Of a stretch of 64,000 nucleotides of DNA, positions 24,187 through 34,784 are shown piece by piece; positions within the stretch are counted from its first letter, which is position 1, and each line of letters opens with the position of its first letter. Location: the NCBI GenBank assembly GCA_030536575.1, contig JAUNPS010000013.1:3072-67071 (forward strand), in the 5' to 3' direction. The translations under genes and the position numbers were made by a program. The notes beneath the pieces are model-generated. The model did no database searches. It saw only the letters and a program-made list of their open reading frames with translations, and was not told where the DNA came from. This stretch comes from Eubacteriales bacterium (GTDB taxonomy: Bacteria > Bacillota > Clostridia > Lachnospirales > Lachnospiraceae).

Positions 24187-24690
24187 CTAAAATTTTCGGA
24201 TTTCATCCTGGCTGTCATCCGTGGTTTTGCTGATTTTTTTGATCACAATGTAGTATCCATAGGTATCGTTCACTTTAATGTAAACGCGGTCGCCTTCCTT
24301 CCGCCCCAGGATCGCCTTTCCAATCGGGGACTCCGTGCTGATCAGCCCCTTCAGCGAATTCCCGCGGATCGACGTCACCAGCCGGTACTCCTCCGTCACA
24401 TCATCTTCTTCGAAATAAACGGAAACCGTATTATTCAGCCCCACCTCGTCTTCTTTCGAATCGTCGGAGATCACCACCGCGTTTTTCAGCATGCGCTCCA
24501 GATAGCGGATCCGGCTTTCATTTTTATTCTTATCGCGTTTTGCCGCATAATATTCGAAGTTTTCGCTCAGATCGCCTTGGGCTCTGGCTTCTTTTACGGC
24601 TTCGATGGCTTCCTTGCGGACTACCAGCTTCCGGTATTCGATCTCCTCTTCAATTTTCTTTACGTCACTTTTTGTCAATTGTTCACCCAT
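24187..24690 (-). CDS. greA: GreA/GreB-family transcription elongation factor
   Basis: 167 residues. An N-terminal coiled-coil (about 5-80) carries the tip acidic residues in EARAQGDLSENFEYYAAK, the GreA signature that reaches into the polymerase channel. A C-terminal FKBP-like domain contains SPIGKAILGRKEGD. It rescues backtracked RNA polymerase by stimulating RNA cleavage. Length is slightly above the usual 158. It starts 45 bp after brnQ with no terminator visible between, so the two may be co-transcribed. Confidence 0.92.
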   Translation of the reverse strand: MGEQLTKSDVKKIEEEIEYRKLVVRKEAIEAVKEARAQGDLSENFEYYAAKRDKNKNESRIRYLERMLKNAVVISDDSKEDEVGLNNTVSVYFEEDDVTEEYRLVTSIRGNSLKGLISTESPIGKAILGRKEGDRVYIKVNDTYGYYIVIKKISKTTDDSQDEIRKF

Positions 24691-27708: not shown

Positions 27709-29055
27709 TCAAAGAACCTGGTGTTTCGCCCATCTTCCGCTGAAATACCGGGATGCGAACAGGATACTGCGCATCACCCAGTCCGTAAACATTCCGATCC
27801 ATACGGCCATCGGCCCGAAATCGAACCGGCGCACCAGCAGAATGCAAAGCGAAACCCGAAAGAGCCACATCGTTGCACAGGAGGTCAGCATGGAAAAGCG
27901 GACATCGCCGGCGGCCCGCATGCCGTAGGCCGGAACGAACGCCCAGGCCCAGGCAATCGGCTTTACAATCGTAATCGCCAGCACCATCTCAAAGCACATC
28001 TTCGCGCTTTCCGGCTCCATCCCGCCAAGGATCGTAATCGGCTTCGTAAGCGCCAGCACAACCACACAGCTAATCGTAATCGCGATCTGCCCCAGGAACG
28101 TCAGCTTTTTAATATAGTAAGCGGCCTCGTCCTTCCTTCCGGCCCCCATGCATTCCCCGACCACGTTCATCAGGCCGATGCCAATCCCGATTCCGGCAAC
28201 GCCGTTTACGGCTTCCAGGATATTCGTCATGGCCTGGGCGGCAATGGCGGTGGTTCCCATCGTAGAAACCGTTGATTGGATCGCCAGTTTTCCGAACTGG
28301 AACATGCTGTTCTCGATACCGGAAGGGATTCCCAGGCTCAGGATTTTCTTCATGATCGAGAAATCCGGCCGGATTTTCCGGTAATCCCGCACGACGATCG
28401 GCTGTCTGGGCCTGCGCAGGAAGCAGAGCACCACGATCGCGCAGAATGCCCGCGAAAGCAGCGTCGCAAGGGCGGCTCCGGCCACGCCCATCCGAAAGCC
28501 CCAGATCAGGAGCGCATTGCCCCCAATATTCAGGAAATTCGAGATAACGGAAATCGTCATCGGCGTTTTCGTGTTCTCCTGTGCCCGGAAAATGGAGGCC
28601 CCGGCGTTATACAGGGCGATAAATGGGAAGGAAAGTGCGGTAAGCAGGAAATAAATCTGGGCGGCATCCATAACGTCCGCTTCCACTGCCCCGAAAATCC
28701 CATGCAGCATGGGCTTGCGCAAAAGCAGGCAGAGCGCCATCAATGCGGTGGAAATGGCTCCCGTCGCCAGGACTACCTGTCGCGCCGCCTGGTTCGCCCC
28801 TTCGTAATCCTTCCCGCCCACATAGTGGGAACAGATGATGGTTCCGCCTGCGGCCAGGGCCGAAAAGGCCTGGATGACCAGAATGTTAATGGAGTCTACC
28901 AGGGAGACGGCGGAAATCGCGGCCGAGCCCACATTGCTGACCATAATCGTATCGACGGTTCCCATCAGGGAGTTTAAAAGCTGCTCGACGATCAGCGGAA
29001 CCAGGAGTTTTTTTAAGTCCTGATTGCTGAACATATGCTGTTGCTGTTGTTTCAT
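27709..29055 (-). CDS. MATE-family multidrug exporter 1
   Basis: 448 residues, about twelve membrane segments in two homologous halves typical of MATE/NorM proteins. LIVEQLLNSLMGTVDTIMVS at the N-terminus is the family signature of the first helix, and the equivalent position in half two is the stretch around ENSMFQFG. It exports cationic drugs or metabolites against Na+ or H+. Start behind TGAGGT. It follows a second MATE gene after 48 bp with no terminator seen between, so both probably share the leader-peptide attenuator upstream of the first. Confidence 0.93.
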   Translation of the reverse strand: MKQQQQHMFSNQDLKKLLVPLIVEQLLNSLMGTVDTIMVSNVGSAAISAVSLVDSINILVIQAFSALAAGGTIICSHYVGGKDYEGANQAARQVVLATGAISTALMALCLLLRKPMLHGIFGAVEADVMDAAQIYFLLTALSFPFIALYNAGASIFRAQENTKTPMTISVISNFLNIGGNALLIWGFRMGVAGAALATLLSRAFCAIVVLCFLRRPRQPIVVRDYRKIRPDFSIMKKILSLGIPSGIENSMFQFGKLAIQSTVSTMGTTAIAAQAMTNILEAVNGVAGIGIGIGLMNVVGECMGAGRKDEAAYYIKKLTFLGQIAITISCVVVLALTKPITILGGMEPESAKMCFEMVLAITIVKPIAWAWAFVPAYGMRAAGDVRFSMLTSCATMWLFRVSLCILLVRRFDFGPMAVWIGMFTDWVMRSILFASRYFSGRWAKHQVL

Positions 29056-29103: not shown

Positions 29104-30450
29104 TTATAGCGCGTTCTTCTGAGAAATACAAGGTTTTCCGTGGACGGACGCCGTCGCTTTCCGCACAAACCGCCAGGAGGCCAGAAGGGTTCCCGCCTCG
29201 GTGACGCCAAAGGAAAGCCAGATCCCGGTCATGCCAAAGATGCGTGAAAGCAGCACCGCGAAAAAGAGGATGCCGACGCAGCCGCGCAGGATTGCGATAA
29301 AAAAGGATTCTTTTGCCCGATCCATTGCGCCCAATCCGGCCGCCGCCGTAACATTCACGCCTGCTGCCAGGAATCCCGGAAAATAAATCCGAAGACCTTC
29401 GGACGCAATCCGGGCGAGCTCCGGATTTTTTTCGCTGTTAAAGGCCGCGACCAGAGGCGTGTTCAGCAAATAGGCCGCCAAAGCCAGAAGCGCTCCTAAA
29501 ACCACGGAGAGCACCGTGCTGTAGAGGAAGATTTTCCGGATTTCCTGCTCCTCGCCCCGTCCGTAAAAGCGGCTGATCAATGGCTGGCAGCCCTGGGAAA
29601 CGCCGGTAAACACGGCCAGCGCCACAAGCGCCAGATTTGCAACGATCCCGTAAGCGGCCACACCCACATTGCCCGCAATTCCCAGGATCAGCAGATTGAA
29701 CACCGCGAGGACCAGCCCGGAGGACAGCTCGTTTACAAAGGCGGAAACGCCAAGGCTTAAAATCCCAGGAAGCCGCTTCGGCTCGATGCCTGTCACGCGG
29801 AAATGGAAGCGGTTCTTTTTCCGGAGGATGTGAACGGACTGCACCAGCATGCCGATAACCGGGGAAACTGCCGTTGCCAGGGCTGCTCCGGCCATTCCCA
29901 GATTCAGCGGATACAGGAACAGATAATCCATCAGTACGTTGGAAAAGCTTCCGATCAGCATTCCCAGCATGGCCAGACTGGGATCACCGTCGTTTCGCAC
30001 GAAGGCGGTCAGGATGTTATTCAAAATGAAAAAGGGCGCGAAGCACATCAGGATTTTCAGATATGTTTCCGCCATTGGAAGGATATTTCCCGACGCGCCC
30101 AGGGCTGATGCCAGAAATTTGGAAGCGAAAAGCCCCAGAAAAAGGAAGAAACTTCCCACACCGATGCCAAAGGCGGCTGATGTGCTGAACACCCGGTCGG
30201 ATTGCCCGCCGTCGCCGTGGGCTTGGCAGATCGCAAAGCGGGTGGCGCCTCCGATCCCGACCATCAGTCCCATGCCGCTTATCAGGCTGTACAGGGGAAG
30301 TACCAGATTCAGGGCGGCCAGGCCGTCGGCCCCCAGACGGTTGGCAATAAAGTAAGTGTCTGCCAGGATATAGCAGGACAGGCCGATCATGCCGGCCACA
30401 TTCAGGGAGACGTATCCGGTGAACTCCTTTAAAAGATGTTTTTGTTTCAT
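29104..30450 (-). CDS. MATE-family multidrug exporter 2
   Basis: 448 residues, twelve predicted membrane segments. It has a typical MATE core with LADTYFIANRLGADGLAALN (about 30-49) and PVIGMLVQ in half one, and GVSQGCQPLISRFYG in half two. GGAGG precedes the ATG. It is the first structural gene of the unit and directly follows a leader with a short ORF and terminator. Two dissimilar MATE proteins in tandem may work separately or together. No substrate can be given. Confidence 0.93.
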   Translation of the reverse strand: MKQKHLLKEFTGYVSLNVAGMIGLSCYILADTYFIANRLGADGLAALNLVLPLYSLISGMGLMVGIGGATRFAICQAHGDGGQSDRVFSTSAAFGIGVGSFFLFLGLFASKFLASALGASGNILPMAETYLKILMCFAPFFILNNILTAFVRNDGDPSLAMLGMLIGSFSNVLMDYLFLYPLNLGMAGAALATAVSPVIGMLVQSVHILRKKNRFHFRVTGIEPKRLPGILSLGVSAFVNELSSGLVLAVFNLLILGIAGNVGVAAYGIVANLALVALAVFTGVSQGCQPLISRFYGRGEEQEIRKIFLYSTVLSVVLGALLALAAYLLNTPLVAAFNSEKNPELARIASEGLRIYFPGFLAAGVNVTAAAGLGAMDRAKESFFIAILRGCVGILFFAVLLSRIFGMTGIWLSFGVTEAGTLLASWRFVRKATASVHGKPCISQKNAL

Positions 30451-30706: not shown

Positions 30707-31114
30707 TCAATCCATCCGCTGGCTGCACCCGGGTTTCGCTTCAGCCCAAAAAGGCTTTTCACCGTTGTCCGAGTGAAAGCACGCACGGAACCGCTCCGCG
30801 TCTTCCAGCGTATGCTTCCATCCATACTTTTTCAGATCTACCCGCTGCCCGTCAGTCACCTCGACCCCTTCTTTTTCCAGCAGCATTGCCTGTAATCCGC
30901 TCACCGCAAAAGCGCCCGCTCCGCTTAGATACCCCTGGCCGTTCACAACGCGGTGGGCCGGAATGTCATCCCTTGTCAGCCGATGCCCCAGCGCATATCC
31001 TACCTGCCTTGCATTGGCAGGCTTCCCGCAGAGCAGCGCAATCTGCCCGTAAGTCGCTACTCTGCCAAACGGAATCTCCTTACAGACCATTTCCACCCGT
31101 TTATAAAAATCCAT
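30707..31114 (-). CDS. Alkyltransferase-like (ATL) protein, MGMT family without catalytic Cys
   Basis: 135 residues. Start ATG 31114, ten bases after AAGGAG and just past the stop of the GTPase fusion. The DNA-binding part of O6-alkylguanine transferases is clear: IPFGRVATYGQIA, NARQVGYAL (Arg finger) and the active-site motif. That motif normally reads PCHRV; here it is PAHRV (residues 52-56), so the acceptor Cys is Ala. ATL proteins bind O6-alkylguanine, flip it out and recruit nucleotide excision repair instead of repairing directly. Its place in an operon with a ribosome GTPase-nuclease fusion is unexpected. Confidence 0.85.
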   Translation of the reverse strand: MDFYKRVEMVCKEIPFGRVATYGQIALLCGKPANARQVGYALGHRLTRDDIPAHRVVNGQGYLSGAGAFAVSGLQAMLLEKEGVEVTDGQRVDLKKYGWKHTLEDAERFRACFHSDNGEKPFWAEAKPGCSQRMD

Positions 31115-31118
31115 TTCG

Positions 31119-33812
31119 TCAAAGCTCCTTCTTTCCCAGGCGGACATCTTCCATATAATCGGCCATTTCTTCGTTCAGGTAGTTAAACAGATAATTTTTA
31201 CTGCTCTGCCTCCGGTTCAGGTACTCGCTGCGGATTTCCCGCCCTGCGATCTCCAGTTCCTCTCTCAGGCCTCTGGCCGAAAGACGCCGGCAGCCCTGTC
31301 CCAGAATAATCACCTGCTCCAGGCCGTCGGAAGTCGCGACCGTCACCGAAGCACGTCGGCCAATGGCGTGGGCGGTCTTTTCGATATACTGGTCAGCCGT
31401 CTCGGCCTCTTTCGTGTAGACAATATAAATATTATGGTATTTCAGGATCTCTTCCGTGTGTCCCTGGACTTTATAAGCGTCAAAGACCAGGATAAGGGTA
31501 CATTTCTTATATCCCTGGTAGTTGCAGAGCAGATCCATCAGCTTCGTCCGCGCGCCGTCAATGTTCGTCGCGGCCAGCTCTTTTAAGTCGTCCCAGGCGA
31601 AAATGATGTTATAGCCGTCTACCAGAAGGTATTCTTCCTGGGATTCCGGCTTTTTCCGAGGTTTGTAGGAGGGCTCGGAAGGCTTTTTTCCGCCCATGCG
31701 CCCGTTCTGCGCGCCGCGGTCGCGTTTGATCGGCCCGTAGGTACGGACAAAAATTTCTTCCAGTTCTTTTTCGTCATGCCAGACAGGTTCCGGAGGCTTT
31801 GGAGCAGGCACGGCGGCCGTCTCCGTCTCTTCCTCCAGCATCAAATCCGTATGCAGGTGCATATATTGCTCCACCTGATCCCATGGGACCAGAAATCCGG
31901 CCCCATGCGCACAAAAAACGGAACCGGTGGGGTTCGCCGTGTCCCGCTCGGAATCGTAACCGATGGCTTCGATCACCTCTTCCGCATTCCGGCAGGGCTC
32001 ATAGCCTTTCAGCGTATAGGAAAGCCTCCCGCGCCCTCTGGTGTAAGAAATCACCTGGCTCTGGTAATCCCGCATCGCCGCCACGGGAGCCGAACCAATC
32101 AGCACGGAATTCTCTCCCTCCAGAACCGGAGGTTCAAAGCTGCCCTGCATTTTCTGGATATCCGTCAGGGCGCGTCCCACATTTTCCGAAGGGATTTCCA
32201 GCCGGAAGTCATAATATGGCTCCAGCAGGACGCTTTTCGCCTTTTTTAAGCCCTGGCGCAGGGCGCGGTAGGTCGCCTGGCGGAAATCGCCGCCTTCCGT
32301 GTGCTTTAAATGTGCCCGTCCGGTAAGGAGCGTAATCTGCACATCCGTGATCCCGGAGCCGGTCAGCACGCCGATGTGTTCCCGTTCTTCCAGATGGGTG
32401 AGGATCAGGCGCTGCCAGTTCCGATCCAATACGTCCTCGCTGCAGGCGGTGAAAAACTGAAGGCCGCTGCCCGGCTCCCCCGGTTCCAGAAGCAAATGGA
32501 CTTCCGCGTAGTGCCGCAGGGGTTCGAAATGGCCCACACCTTCCACGGTATTCGCGATGGTTTCTTTATAAACAATGTTTCCGGTTCCGAATTCGACGGC
32601 CACCCCAAAACGCTCTTTTATCAGGCTTTTTAAAATCTCGGTCTGGACTTCGCCCATGAGCTGTGCATGGATTTCGCCCAGATGTTCATTCCACACAATA
32701 TGTAACTGCGGCTCCTCTTCCTCCAGGAGGCGCAGCTTCTGCAGCATGCCGTGCACGTCGCACTCCGGCGGGAGCTTAATCTGGTAGGTCAGAACCGGCT
32801 CCAAAACCGGAAGTTCCGAGGCTTTTTCGCAGCCGAAGCCTTCACCGGGGCGGGTTTTCGTCAGGCCGGTGACGGCGCAGATGCTCCCAGCCGGGGCTTC
32901 GCTGACCGCTTCGAAACGCGCGCCGGAATAAAAGCGGATCTGATTAATCTTTTCTTCCCAGTACTCATCCCCGTCCGGCGCGTCTGGCGGGCGGTTCGTC
33001 AGGGTATCTTTTACCTTCAGGGTTCCTCCGGTGACTTTCAGATAAGTGAGCCGGGTTCCCTGGTCGTCTCTGGCGATTTTGTAGACTTTTGCGCCGAAGG
33101 CGTTTCCGTAGTGCGGGGCCGCGGTATAGCGCCGGATTCCTTCCAGAAATTCCGGTACGCCGTCTAGTTTCAGGGCGGAACCGAAGTAGCATGGGAAGAC
33201 CTTTCGCTCTGCAATCAGGCGCACGATCTCTTTTTCTGCTATCTCTCCGCTCTCTAAATATTGTTCCAGAAGCGTCTCCTCGCATACGGCCAGATTCTCC
33301 AGCCAGCTTCCCCGATCCTGTTCCGGGTCGAAGTCGATGCAGCTTTCGTCCAGGCGCTTTTTCAGCTCTTCCAGCAAGACCTGCCGGTCTGTCCCATTCT
33401 GATCCATTTTATTAATAAACAGAAAAACCGGAATCTCATATCTGGCCAGGAGACGCCACAGGGTGCGGGTGTGCCCCTGGACGCCGTCGGCTCCGCTGAT
33501 CACCAGGACTGCGTAGTCCAACACCTGGAGGGTGCGCTCCATTTCTGCAGAAAAGTCCACATGGCCTGGGGTGTCCAGGAGGGTCACGGAAAGGTCGCCC
33601 AGGGCCATCCGGGCCTGTTTGGAAAAGATGGTGATGCCGCGCTCGCGTTCCAGGTCGTGGGTGTCCAGGAAGGCGTCTTTATTATCGACGCGGCCGAGCT
33701 TTCGGATGCTGCCGCTTTTATAGAGCATGCTTTCTGACAAGGTGGTTTTTCCGGCGTCTACATGTGCGAGAATACCAAGACAGATGTGCTTTTCCAATCC
33801 TGAACCCATCAT
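31119..33812 (-). CDS. TetM-like translational GTPase fused to a Rae1/YacP-type NYN nuclease
   Basis: 897 residues. 1-655: EF-G/TetM-type GTPase with AHVDAGKTT (G1, 16-24), RGITI (G2), DTPGH (G3, 80-84) and NKMD (G4, 134-137), then the EF-G-like domains. The TetM drug-dislodging loop before ADFR (normally YSPVSTP) reads HLKHTEGG (501-508), so tetracycline protection is doubtful. A basic Pro/Lys linker (660-726) leads to a C-terminal NYN/YacP domain (727-865) with LLVDGYNII, LVFDAY, ETADQYIEK and VATSDG, the acidic residues of the B. subtilis A-site nuclease Rae1. An HTH gene overlaps the start; ATL follows after 4 bp. Confidence 0.9.
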   Translation of the reverse strand: MMGSGLEKHICLGILAHVDAGKTTLSESMLYKSGSIRKLGRVDNKDAFLDTHDLERERGITIFSKQARMALGDLSVTLLDTPGHVDFSAEMERTLQVLDYAVLVISGADGVQGHTRTLWRLLARYEIPVFLFINKMDQNGTDRQVLLEELKKRLDESCIDFDPEQDRGSWLENLAVCEETLLEQYLESGEIAEKEIVRLIAERKVFPCYFGSALKLDGVPEFLEGIRRYTAAPHYGNAFGAKVYKIARDDQGTRLTYLKVTGGTLKVKDTLTNRPPDAPDGDEYWEEKINQIRFYSGARFEAVSEAPAGSICAVTGLTKTRPGEGFGCEKASELPVLEPVLTYQIKLPPECDVHGMLQKLRLLEEEEPQLHIVWNEHLGEIHAQLMGEVQTEILKSLIKERFGVAVEFGTGNIVYKETIANTVEGVGHFEPLRHYAEVHLLLEPGEPGSGLQFFTACSEDVLDRNWQRLILTHLEEREHIGVLTGSGITDVQITLLTGRAHLKHTEGGDFRQATYRALRQGLKKAKSVLLEPYYDFRLEIPSENVGRALTDIQKMQGSFEPPVLEGENSVLIGSAPVAAMRDYQSQVISYTRGRGRLSYTLKGYEPCRNAEEVIEAIGYDSERDTANPTGSVFCAHGAGFLVPWDQVEQYMHLHTDLMLEEETETAAVPAPKPPEPVWHDEKELEEIFVRTYGPIKRDRGAQNGRMGGKKPSEPSYKPRKKPESQEEYLLVDGYNIIFAWDDLKELAATNIDGARTKLMDLLCNYQGYKKCTLILVFDAYKVQGHTEEILKYHNIYIVYTKEAETADQYIEKTAHAIGRRASVTVATSDGLEQVIILGQGCRRLSARGLREELEIAGREIRSEYLNRRQSSKNYLFNYLNEEMADYMEDVRLGKKEL

Positions 33813-34024
33813 AATACCTCTTCCGGATGAATCTTCTGCAGCATCCCAGGCCGCTCCATCTCTACCTTATATGCCATCAGTTTCAATAAATACTCCGGCA
33901 TCCTCCGGTTCCCCAACTCCCAATCCTGCAAAGTCCGGTAGGGAATCCCAAAATATTCCGCAAACTGCCGCTTATTCATCCCGGTGCTTCTGCGCAGCAT
34001 CATCAACTGTTCTCTTGAGTCCAT
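33809..34024 (-). CDS. Small HTH protein heading the GTPase-nuclease operon
   Basis: 71 residues. A single XRE-like helix-turn-helix: MNKRQFAEYFGIPYRTLQDW, then NRRMPEYLLKLM, a form common in antitoxin-like or autoregulatory proteins. Start ATG 34024 behind AAGGAAGG; the longer frame lacks a site. Its stop TGA overlaps the ATG of the GTPase fusion, implying coupled translation. It may regulate the operon; no cognate toxin-like gene is visible other than the nuclease fusion. Confidence 0.8.
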   Translation of the reverse strand: MDSREQLMMLRRSTGMNKRQFAEYFGIPYRTLQDWELGNRRMPEYLLKLMAYKVEMERPGMLQKIHPEEVL

Positions 34025-34062
34025 AATCCTTCCTTCTTCCTCATACGCATTGTGTACATCAT

Positions 34063-34091
34063 ATCTTACCACAGATCATCCACAAAATCAA
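34063..34091 (-). promoter_or_regulatory. Promoter of the HTH-GTPase-ATL operon
   Basis: TTGATT (34091-34086), 17 bp, TAAGAT (34068-34063). RNA starts near 34056, about 30 bases before the HTH gene. Confidence 0.65.
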
Positions 34092-34209: not shown

Positions 34210-34784
34210 TTACCGATAGAGATCCTCCAGCGTCAGCAAGGTAACCTCCCCCTGCTTTTCTGCCTCCAACAGTTCGGGTGTAAAACCGCCTTTAGAAAAA
34301 ATGTAATAATGGAAGGTTCCATTCCTGCGGAATACCGCCGCATATCTACGAAGCAGCTCCAATTCCTCGATTCCAATCTTCTCATTCCGATATTTGCAGG
34401 AGCCGATCAGATACTCATTGCCATCCACTGGCGTACCCACGCCAAATATGGGTACTCATCAATGACAAACACCAGCCGTTTCTCCGCCGCCATCGCAGTA
34501 ATGGCATCCAGTGCATCCGCATAACTCTGATAGGTAGGAGCGCTGGCGCTGTCCGGGTTCTGACAGGTATAAATCGCCTTAGAGAGCGCCTCCAAATTTT
34601 CCTGGGAGGAGGCGTTTAATGCAGAGAAATAGACGGTAGGTTTCCCTTTGCAAAATTCATTGATTAAGGCCGTTTTGCCCACACGCCGCCTGCCATATAT
34701 GACAACGCACTCAAACCGCCCTTTCTCATAACGGTGATTCATCGTGCGTAATTCTTCTTCCCTGGAAAACGGATTTTTCTGCAC
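34210..34784 (-). pseudogene. AAA-type ATPase (DUF234 family) with internal deletion
   Basis: The N-terminal 120 codons show GRRRVGKTALI (Walker A) and LVFVIDEYPYLAW (Walker B). A short out-of-frame piece follows and then, in another frame (34440-34210), the C-terminal DUF234 nuclease-like end with EYLIGSCKYRNEKIG. Intact homologues are about 450-480 residues; here only about 195 codons remain and the middle is gone. The 5' end abuts a transposase remnant on the other strand. Not expected to be functional. Confidence 0.8.

Follow-up and report, generated by a model that had tools for sequence, protein, structure and literature searches.

Here, we describe a protein in which a translational GTPase of the EF-G type is joined to a Rae1-like nuclease. 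It is encoded in a 64,000-nucleotide stretch of DNA from a Eubacteriales bacterium of the family Lachnospiraceae (GCA_030536575.1, contig JAUNPS010000013.1, positions 3,072 to 67,071; hereafter, the window). As the initial annotation had recognized, both parts lie in one protein, an 897-amino-acid (aa) single frame with an ATG start at 31119-33812 of the minus strand, which holds all EF-G-type domains and an NYN_YacP domain. The fused gene is a core gene of its gut-bacterial family, both halves look active from their conserved residues, and in its carriers the fusion appears to have replaced the separate Rae1. We give about an even chance to the reading that the protein acts as a housekeeping mRNA endonuclease directed at the ribosome, in a role taken over from free Rae1. 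The gene is laid out as follows.

31119..33812, minus strand: fused GTPase-NYN gene, 897 aa (open reading frame coordinates)
33123..33791, minus strand: G domain, residues 8-230 (PF00009 GTP_EFTU, E 1.5e-51)
32844..33092, minus strand: EF-G domain II, residues 241-323 (PF22042 EF-G_D2, E 2.5e-6)
32586..32801, minus strand: EF-G domain III, residues 338-409 (PF14492 EFG_III, E 5e-7)
32235..32579, minus strand: EF-G domain IV, residues 412-526 (PF03764 EFG_IV, E 5.2e-17)
32280..32318, minus strand: domain-IV tip loop RAHLKHTEGGDFR, residues 499-511, at the position of the TetM loop YYSPVSTPADFR (alignment to TetM)
31986..32231, minus strand: EF-G domain V, residues 528-609 (PF00679 EFG_C, E 8.6e-19)
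31857..31985, minus strand: family-specific tail SVFCxHGxGFxVxW...YMH, residues 610-652 (common to unfused relatives, absent from Tet rows)
31635..31856, minus strand: variable charged linker, residues 653-726 (61-115 aa, median 77, in 54 rows)
31734..31772, minus strand: short linker motif EKELEEIFVRTYG, residues 681-693 (I687 in 54/54 rows, T691 in 51/54)
31140..31628, minus strand: NYN_YacP (Rae1-like) nuclease domain, residues 729-891 (PF05991, E 3.8e-52; 5mq9, E 3.7e-28)

The GTPase is complete through residue 609 and bears the marks of a translational GTPase, namely a G domain with DxAGKT, DTPGH, and NKxD followed by domains II to V. Behind it come the tail, the linker, and a complete NYN_YacP domain, which passes the Pfam cut-off of 24.6 at 177.1 bits and extends further than the limits of 727-865 first assigned to it. 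Domain search of the window's genome returns this domain as the single NYN_YacP match, whereas EFG_IV matches three proteins there, the fusion and two others of 703 and 709 aa. Because about 125 of 150 family genomes, judged by frame length, share the fusion and 77 loci of named genomes encode its relatives, it is neither a chance event nor a misassembly.

Both active sites are strongly conserved. For these counts, the loci supplied 114 fused frames, and the GTPase counts use 83 rows (82 full-length frames and the window). The G motifs AHVDAGKT, DTPGH, NKMD, and GSAL are all present and conserved in the fusion: D19, G21, K22, T23, DTPGH, K135, and D137 occur in 83/83 full-length fused rows and N134 in 82/83, in agreement with the early description of these motifs as intact. 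The same holds for the nuclease, in which D732, N735, D778, D807, and D829 are found in all 114 fused NYN rows and E811 in 113; the concern that NYN residues might be mutated in most homologues is thus not borne out. Eleven free NYN rows of the family and its order, and nine free rows from the rest of the class, have the same residues. Further, D732 and D807 of the fusion align with D7 and D81 of Bacillus subtilis YacP/Rae1 (PDB 5mq9, E value 3.7e-28), its reported catalytic residues. At the tip of domain IV, the His-Thr pair is invariant (H504 and T505 in 83/83 fused and 23/23 unfused rows), and the Lys and Gly-Gly are nearly so.

We next consider the kinship of the GTPase half. The best model for the fusion is NCBIfam tet_protect, and its closest solved structures are TetM and TetO, which likewise have the EF-G domain order without the G' insertion and are about 31% identical to the fusion over residues 8-604. 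The tet_protect score of 442.8 bits is nevertheless below the cut-off of 775, and the scores of five relatives (two fused and three unfused; 393-442) all fall short of it as well. EF-G has every domain and GTPase motif in common with the fusion, yet the fusion reaches 301.6 bits with the EF-G model TIGR00484, far from the cut-off of 659.4. The domain-IV tip, HxKHTEGGDFR, aligns gap-free to TetM YYSPVSTPADFR with equal loop length, and HLKHTEGG stands where TetM has YSPVSTP, which upholds the original observation that the tetracycline loop is replaced. Pro509 of TetM, which sits in the drug site and contacts C1054 according to a review (PMC8161019), corresponds to Lys503 of the fusion, and Lys occupies this position in 81/83 fused and 22/23 unfused rows.

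Other features also set the group apart. The tail SVFCxHGxGFxVxW...YMH, behind domain V, is missing from the six Tet-type rows compared. Both the tip and the tail are present in unfused proteins of approximately 645 to 730 aa, which end soon after the tail. In phylogenetic trees, fused and unfused forms together split from the Tet rows with Shimodaira-Hasegawa-like approximate likelihood ratio test (SH-aLRT) values of 99 (EF-G-rooted tree) and 100 (Tet-rooted tree); the Tet rows were Tet(M), Tet(O), Tet(S), and Tet(O/W/32/O), with TetQ, OtrA, and TetB(P) outside the sample. By these sequence criteria, the GTPase of the fusion belongs to a separate family, marked by the HxKHTEGGDFR tip and the tail, that we name the KHT family, and the fusion is not simply a tetracycline-protection protein plus a nuclease. 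Unlike TetM and TetO, the fusion carries the tail and the nuclease and is near-universal in its own bacterial family. The initial description of the GTPase as TetM-like therefore stands insofar as TetM is its nearest named kin, but not as membership, given the score below the cut-off and the position outside the sampled Tet rows. NCBI labels the fused Monoglobus and the unfused Ligilactobacillus genes "translation factor GTPase family protein," a likeness of name only, and neither record gives a function.

The distribution of the fusion was surveyed at several levels. The family survey covered 150 Lachnospiraceae genomes, one per genus, and found NYN_YacP in 135 of them: about 125 fused, nine in short frames, and one cut by a contig end. 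Fused and short counts were read from frame lengths and GTPase positions, with frames interrupted by a contig end or a frame break (e.g., G095, G042, G140, and G098) counted as fused; eight of the nine short-NYN loci were read from sequence and the ninth (G068, 260 aa) was assigned by length. The domain search and phylogeny suggested in the initial annotation thus confirm the fusion across its family and, at the same time, separate its GTPase from the Tet rows. A GTPase match was found in 131 of the 150 genomes, one of which (G068) has a Tet-type match only. The GTPase is absent, in any form, from all 15 genomes without NYN and occurs unfused in five of the nine genomes with a short NYN frame (one-sided Fisher p 0.003, uncorrected for kinship). 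Among named genomes, a pattern-based scan returned 77 relatives and two loci matching the G domain only. These relatives are mostly from Lachnospiraceae (e.g., Blautia, Eisenbergiella, Kineothrix, Anaerostipes, Anaerocolumna, and Coprococcus) and extend to Desulfosporosinus, Anaerovorax, Alkaliphilus, and Fusibacter. In the EF-G-rooted tree, the window protein has such rows as its neighbors, in keeping with an origin from Lachnospiraceae. The class survey found NYN in 189/291 genomes, in two size classes; the counts exclude G280, a 65%-complete genome that lacks NYN and whose GTPase copy is truncated at a contig end. In the phylum survey, NYN is present in 208/398 genomes and the GTPase in 28, at E values up to 1e-110, with 23 fused and five unfused.

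Some copies lie in unusual records. One fused copy is carried on a 518-kb Monoglobus replicon. The idea of a mobile or phage gene was considered and set aside: in two gut records named "Bacteriophage sp." (L175:5421-7958 and L176:6001-8595), a match to the fusion spans 94% and 98% of the query, respectively, but these records are perhaps bacterial DNA because both are UNVERIFIED and unannotated. The fusion is also present in a record named Calditrichales bacterium MX18-03 (L066:5998-8646), an organism name that is doubtful because the row nearest to it comes from a Clostridia genome bin, in which the downstream gene is similar.

The fusion shares the entire NYN_YacP domain and the invariant acidic residues with Rae1/YacP of B. 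subtilis (PDB 5mq8 and 5mq9). Rae1, however, is a free-standing protein of approximately 170 aa encoded in a cysS-mrnC-rlmB-rae1-sigma cluster, whereas here the domain forms the C-terminus of a GTPase of 897 aa encoded at another locus. One free NYN gene (L157) lies in the full cluster of cysS, an RNase III-type gene (mrnC), rlmB, NYN, and a sigma-70 gene, and rlmB likewise precedes the free NYN in L161 and L158. We checked the surroundings of rlmB in 18 genomes. rae1 is absent behind rlmB in all 13 genomes whose sole NYN is fused, including the window's genome. In 12 of these, the sigma gene follows 27 to 637 bases behind rlmB; in the window's genome, another gene is directly behind rlmB. In the two genomes with free NYN, it occupies the rlmB slot in G054 and lies elsewhere in G391. 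The vacant slot is consistent with replacement of the separate Rae1 by the fusion.

The trees allow a simple history for this replacement. In the NYN tree (67 rows), a single group unites the fused rows with the 11 free rows of the family and order, and the nine other free rows lie beside it. Several independent fusions were considered and set aside, as a single clade of fused rows is not rejected by the approximately unbiased (AU) test in the NYN tree (p-AU 0.506) or the Tet-rooted GTPase tree (p-AU 0.209); this compatibility is not proof. Unfused forms diverge first in the Tet-rooted GTPase tree (49 rows, which omits six long-branch fused rows, the EF-G rows, and L128), with the fused forms nested within, while in the larger EF-G-rooted tree (71 rows), 21 unfused rows cluster together next to the fused ones. 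In the simplest history that the trees allow, without proving it, a KHT GTPase that already existed would have been joined once to a clostridial Rae1, with loss of the separate rae1. One unfused gene, from Ligilactobacillus salivarius (L129), is placed among the fused rows in both GTPase trees. This gene lies on a megaplasmid (L129:3526-5917), divergent to rpsN, which encodes ribosomal protein S14.

How might the two halves work together? According to a recent review (PMC12320835), Rae1 attacks mRNA in the ribosomal A site, and transfer-messenger RNA (tmRNA) can enter once cleavage has vacated that site; Tet-type proteins overlap the EF-G site and extend into the A site, as described in another review (PMC8161019). 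The fusion therefore places an A-site nuclease on a factor that visits the A site. We propose that the EF-G-like half would bind paused or stalled ribosomes with an empty A site, where the HxKHTEGG tip of domain IV would reach the decoding center at the place of the TetM proline loop. The GTPase half would be released upon GTP hydrolysis, and the nuclease, tethered by its linker of 61 to 115 aa, would then cut the mRNA within or adjacent to the A site, in the manner of B. subtilis Rae1. The ribosome left on the truncated mRNA would be passed to tmRNA, the gene for which was found in the window's genome (139.9 bits). We infer ribosome binding, the A-site target, the mRNA substrate, its cleavage, the order of these events, and the tmRNA hand-over.

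The linker bears on this proposal. Amid otherwise variable sequence, the motif E(L/I)xxI(F/L)xRT(Y/F) is nearly invariant (54 rows) and is perhaps a docking site on the ribosome or the GTPase. This near-invariance, together with retention of the fusion in about 125 of the 150 genera, suggests that it is important for the two halves to be linked. By our estimate, the linker, if extended, could span a distance much greater than one A site. There would hardly be room in a single A site for both a TetM-like domain IV and the nuclease, which favors sequential action or action on a neighboring ribosome. Accordingly, the "binds, remodels and cleaves" scheme of the initial annotation would have to involve sequential steps or two ribosomes. 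In a further reading, which is possible but which we hold only tentatively, the protein would be a one-chain, GTP-driven no-go-decay machine: the tip would probe an empty A site, hydrolysis would swing the GTPase out, and the NYN domain, swung in or reaching a collided neighbor, would cut the codon.

The crowding of a single A site is one of several points that weigh against a ribosome-targeted nuclease built from two cooperating halves. Three genomes (G285, G350, and G390) have both the fusion and a second NYN outside the rlmB slot. Among the 16 class-survey genomes with an unfused GTPase, NYN is present in 10 and absent from six, and a seventeenth case (G385) has a broken GTPase copy and no NYN; in the phylum survey, NYN is present in four of the five genomes with an unfused GTPase and absent from one. 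Strict co-dependence of the unfused GTPase and free Rae1, which the family counts alone would favor, was rejected on these absences. Conversely, about 181 of the 208 phylum-survey genomes with NYN lack such a GTPase at E values up to 1e-110, and Rae1 therefore has no general need of it. Genomes with either half alone, and the variable linker length, would fit largely independent halves, with the nuclease acting as Rae1 and the GTPase being a translation factor in its own right, which might relieve particular pauses and would be no more than a tether to the ribosome for the nuclease. Retention of the fusion across most genera of the family and the nearly invariant linker motif argue in the opposite direction, and we regard independence as rather doubtful.

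Two other explanations concern the substrate and the purpose of the protein. The GTPase might act on immature or idle ribosomes while the NYN domain trims rRNA or tRNA, making the fusion a factor for ribosome biogenesis or stable-RNA processing. The 2015 paper discussed below cites a proposed role of NYN domains in rRNA and tRNA maturation (PMC4342817), and the free gene adjoins rlmB, for an rRNA methyltransferase, and an RNase III-type gene. The closest characterized NYN protein is, however, B. subtilis YacP/Rae1, for which the review describes action on A-site mRNA (PMC12320835), making a processing role improbable. Protection against tetracycline or another drug, with the nuclease adding a new resistance mechanism as proposed in 2015 (PMC4342817), seems to us very improbable, although tet_protect is the top NCBIfam model and TetM and TetO are the nearest solved structures. 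The window protein and five relatives score below the tet_protect cut-off, the proline reported to contact C1054 in TetM (PMC8161019) is Lys in nearly all fused rows, and the fusion is spread through its family in varied neighborhoods. At least 12 fusion carriers (G028, G032, G035, G047, G067, G072, G088, G104, G110, G122, G138, and G145) also have a Tet-type match of 643 to 644 aa and 32 to 34% identity, and the fusion evidently does not make a Tet gene superfluous. These matches were recognized by score and length (the size of Tet(M/O/W)); a similar protein from the class survey, L127, has YSPVSTP.

The gene neighborhood is variable. No conserved neighborhood was found across 76 loci, and the most widely shared neighbor clusters occur in 18, 15, 11, and 10 of the 76. 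Similarly, no common theme was found among the neighbors of unfused genes, of which the three named ones are DNA ligase, a glycosyl hydrolase-like protein, and BrxL. In 10 of the 76 loci, a 167-aa gene that we named GreA-like by eye (window 24187-24690, minus strand) is downstream of the fusion, and it directly adjoins the fusion in five of the 10; besides the window, these loci are L037, L045, L048, L052, L055, L059, L068, L076, and L090. Two frames touch the fused gene in the window, each a matter of local layout only.

33809..34072, minus strand: 87-aa helix-turn-helix-like frame, upstream, with a stop that overlaps the fusion start codon (ATGA; coordinates)
30707..31147, minus strand: 146-aa gene with an O6-methylguanine-DNA methyltransferase DNA-binding domain, downstream, with a 29-base overlap with the fusion at the 3' end of the latter

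The upstream frame scores 22.8 bits with HTH_3, slightly below the cut-off of 23. Downstream, two adjoining MATE transporter genes of 448 aa each lie at 27709-29055 and 29104-30450 (minus strand). A 125-aa frame at 34407-34784 (minus strand) matches only positions 2-123 of the 225 in ATPase_2 and looks like a gene remnant.

Atkinson 2015 describes ten clostridial species whose Tet proteins have gained a YacP-like NYN domain, and raises the possibility that these proteins confer resistance by a new mechanism (PMC4342817). These are very probably the same fusion, and because it was reported there, the fusion per se is not new. That text reads the proteins as Tet, in contrast to the present reading, in which the GTPase forms a group of its own and the fusion is a core gene that stands in for Rae1. 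No other paper on the fusion was found in the open-licence literature, a body that does not cover the primary Rae1 papers. We did not find in print the separate GTPase family, the core-gene status, the replacement of Rae1, or the view that a resistance role is unlikely.

The 2025 review notes that not all endonucleases acting on ribosome-bound mRNA have yet been listed (PMC12320835). A natural stand-in for Rae1 links an A-site nuclease to a particular translational GTPase and offers both in one protein for structural work. The fusion also holds a pitfall for annotation: what is a core translation factor in many gut bacteria can be mislabeled as a gene for tetracycline resistance, a role that we consider unlikely. 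Should the tentative no-go-decay reading be true, stall detection and mRNA cleavage would be combined in one protein, and this protein would be the default ribosome quality-control nuclease of an abundant gut-bacterial family.

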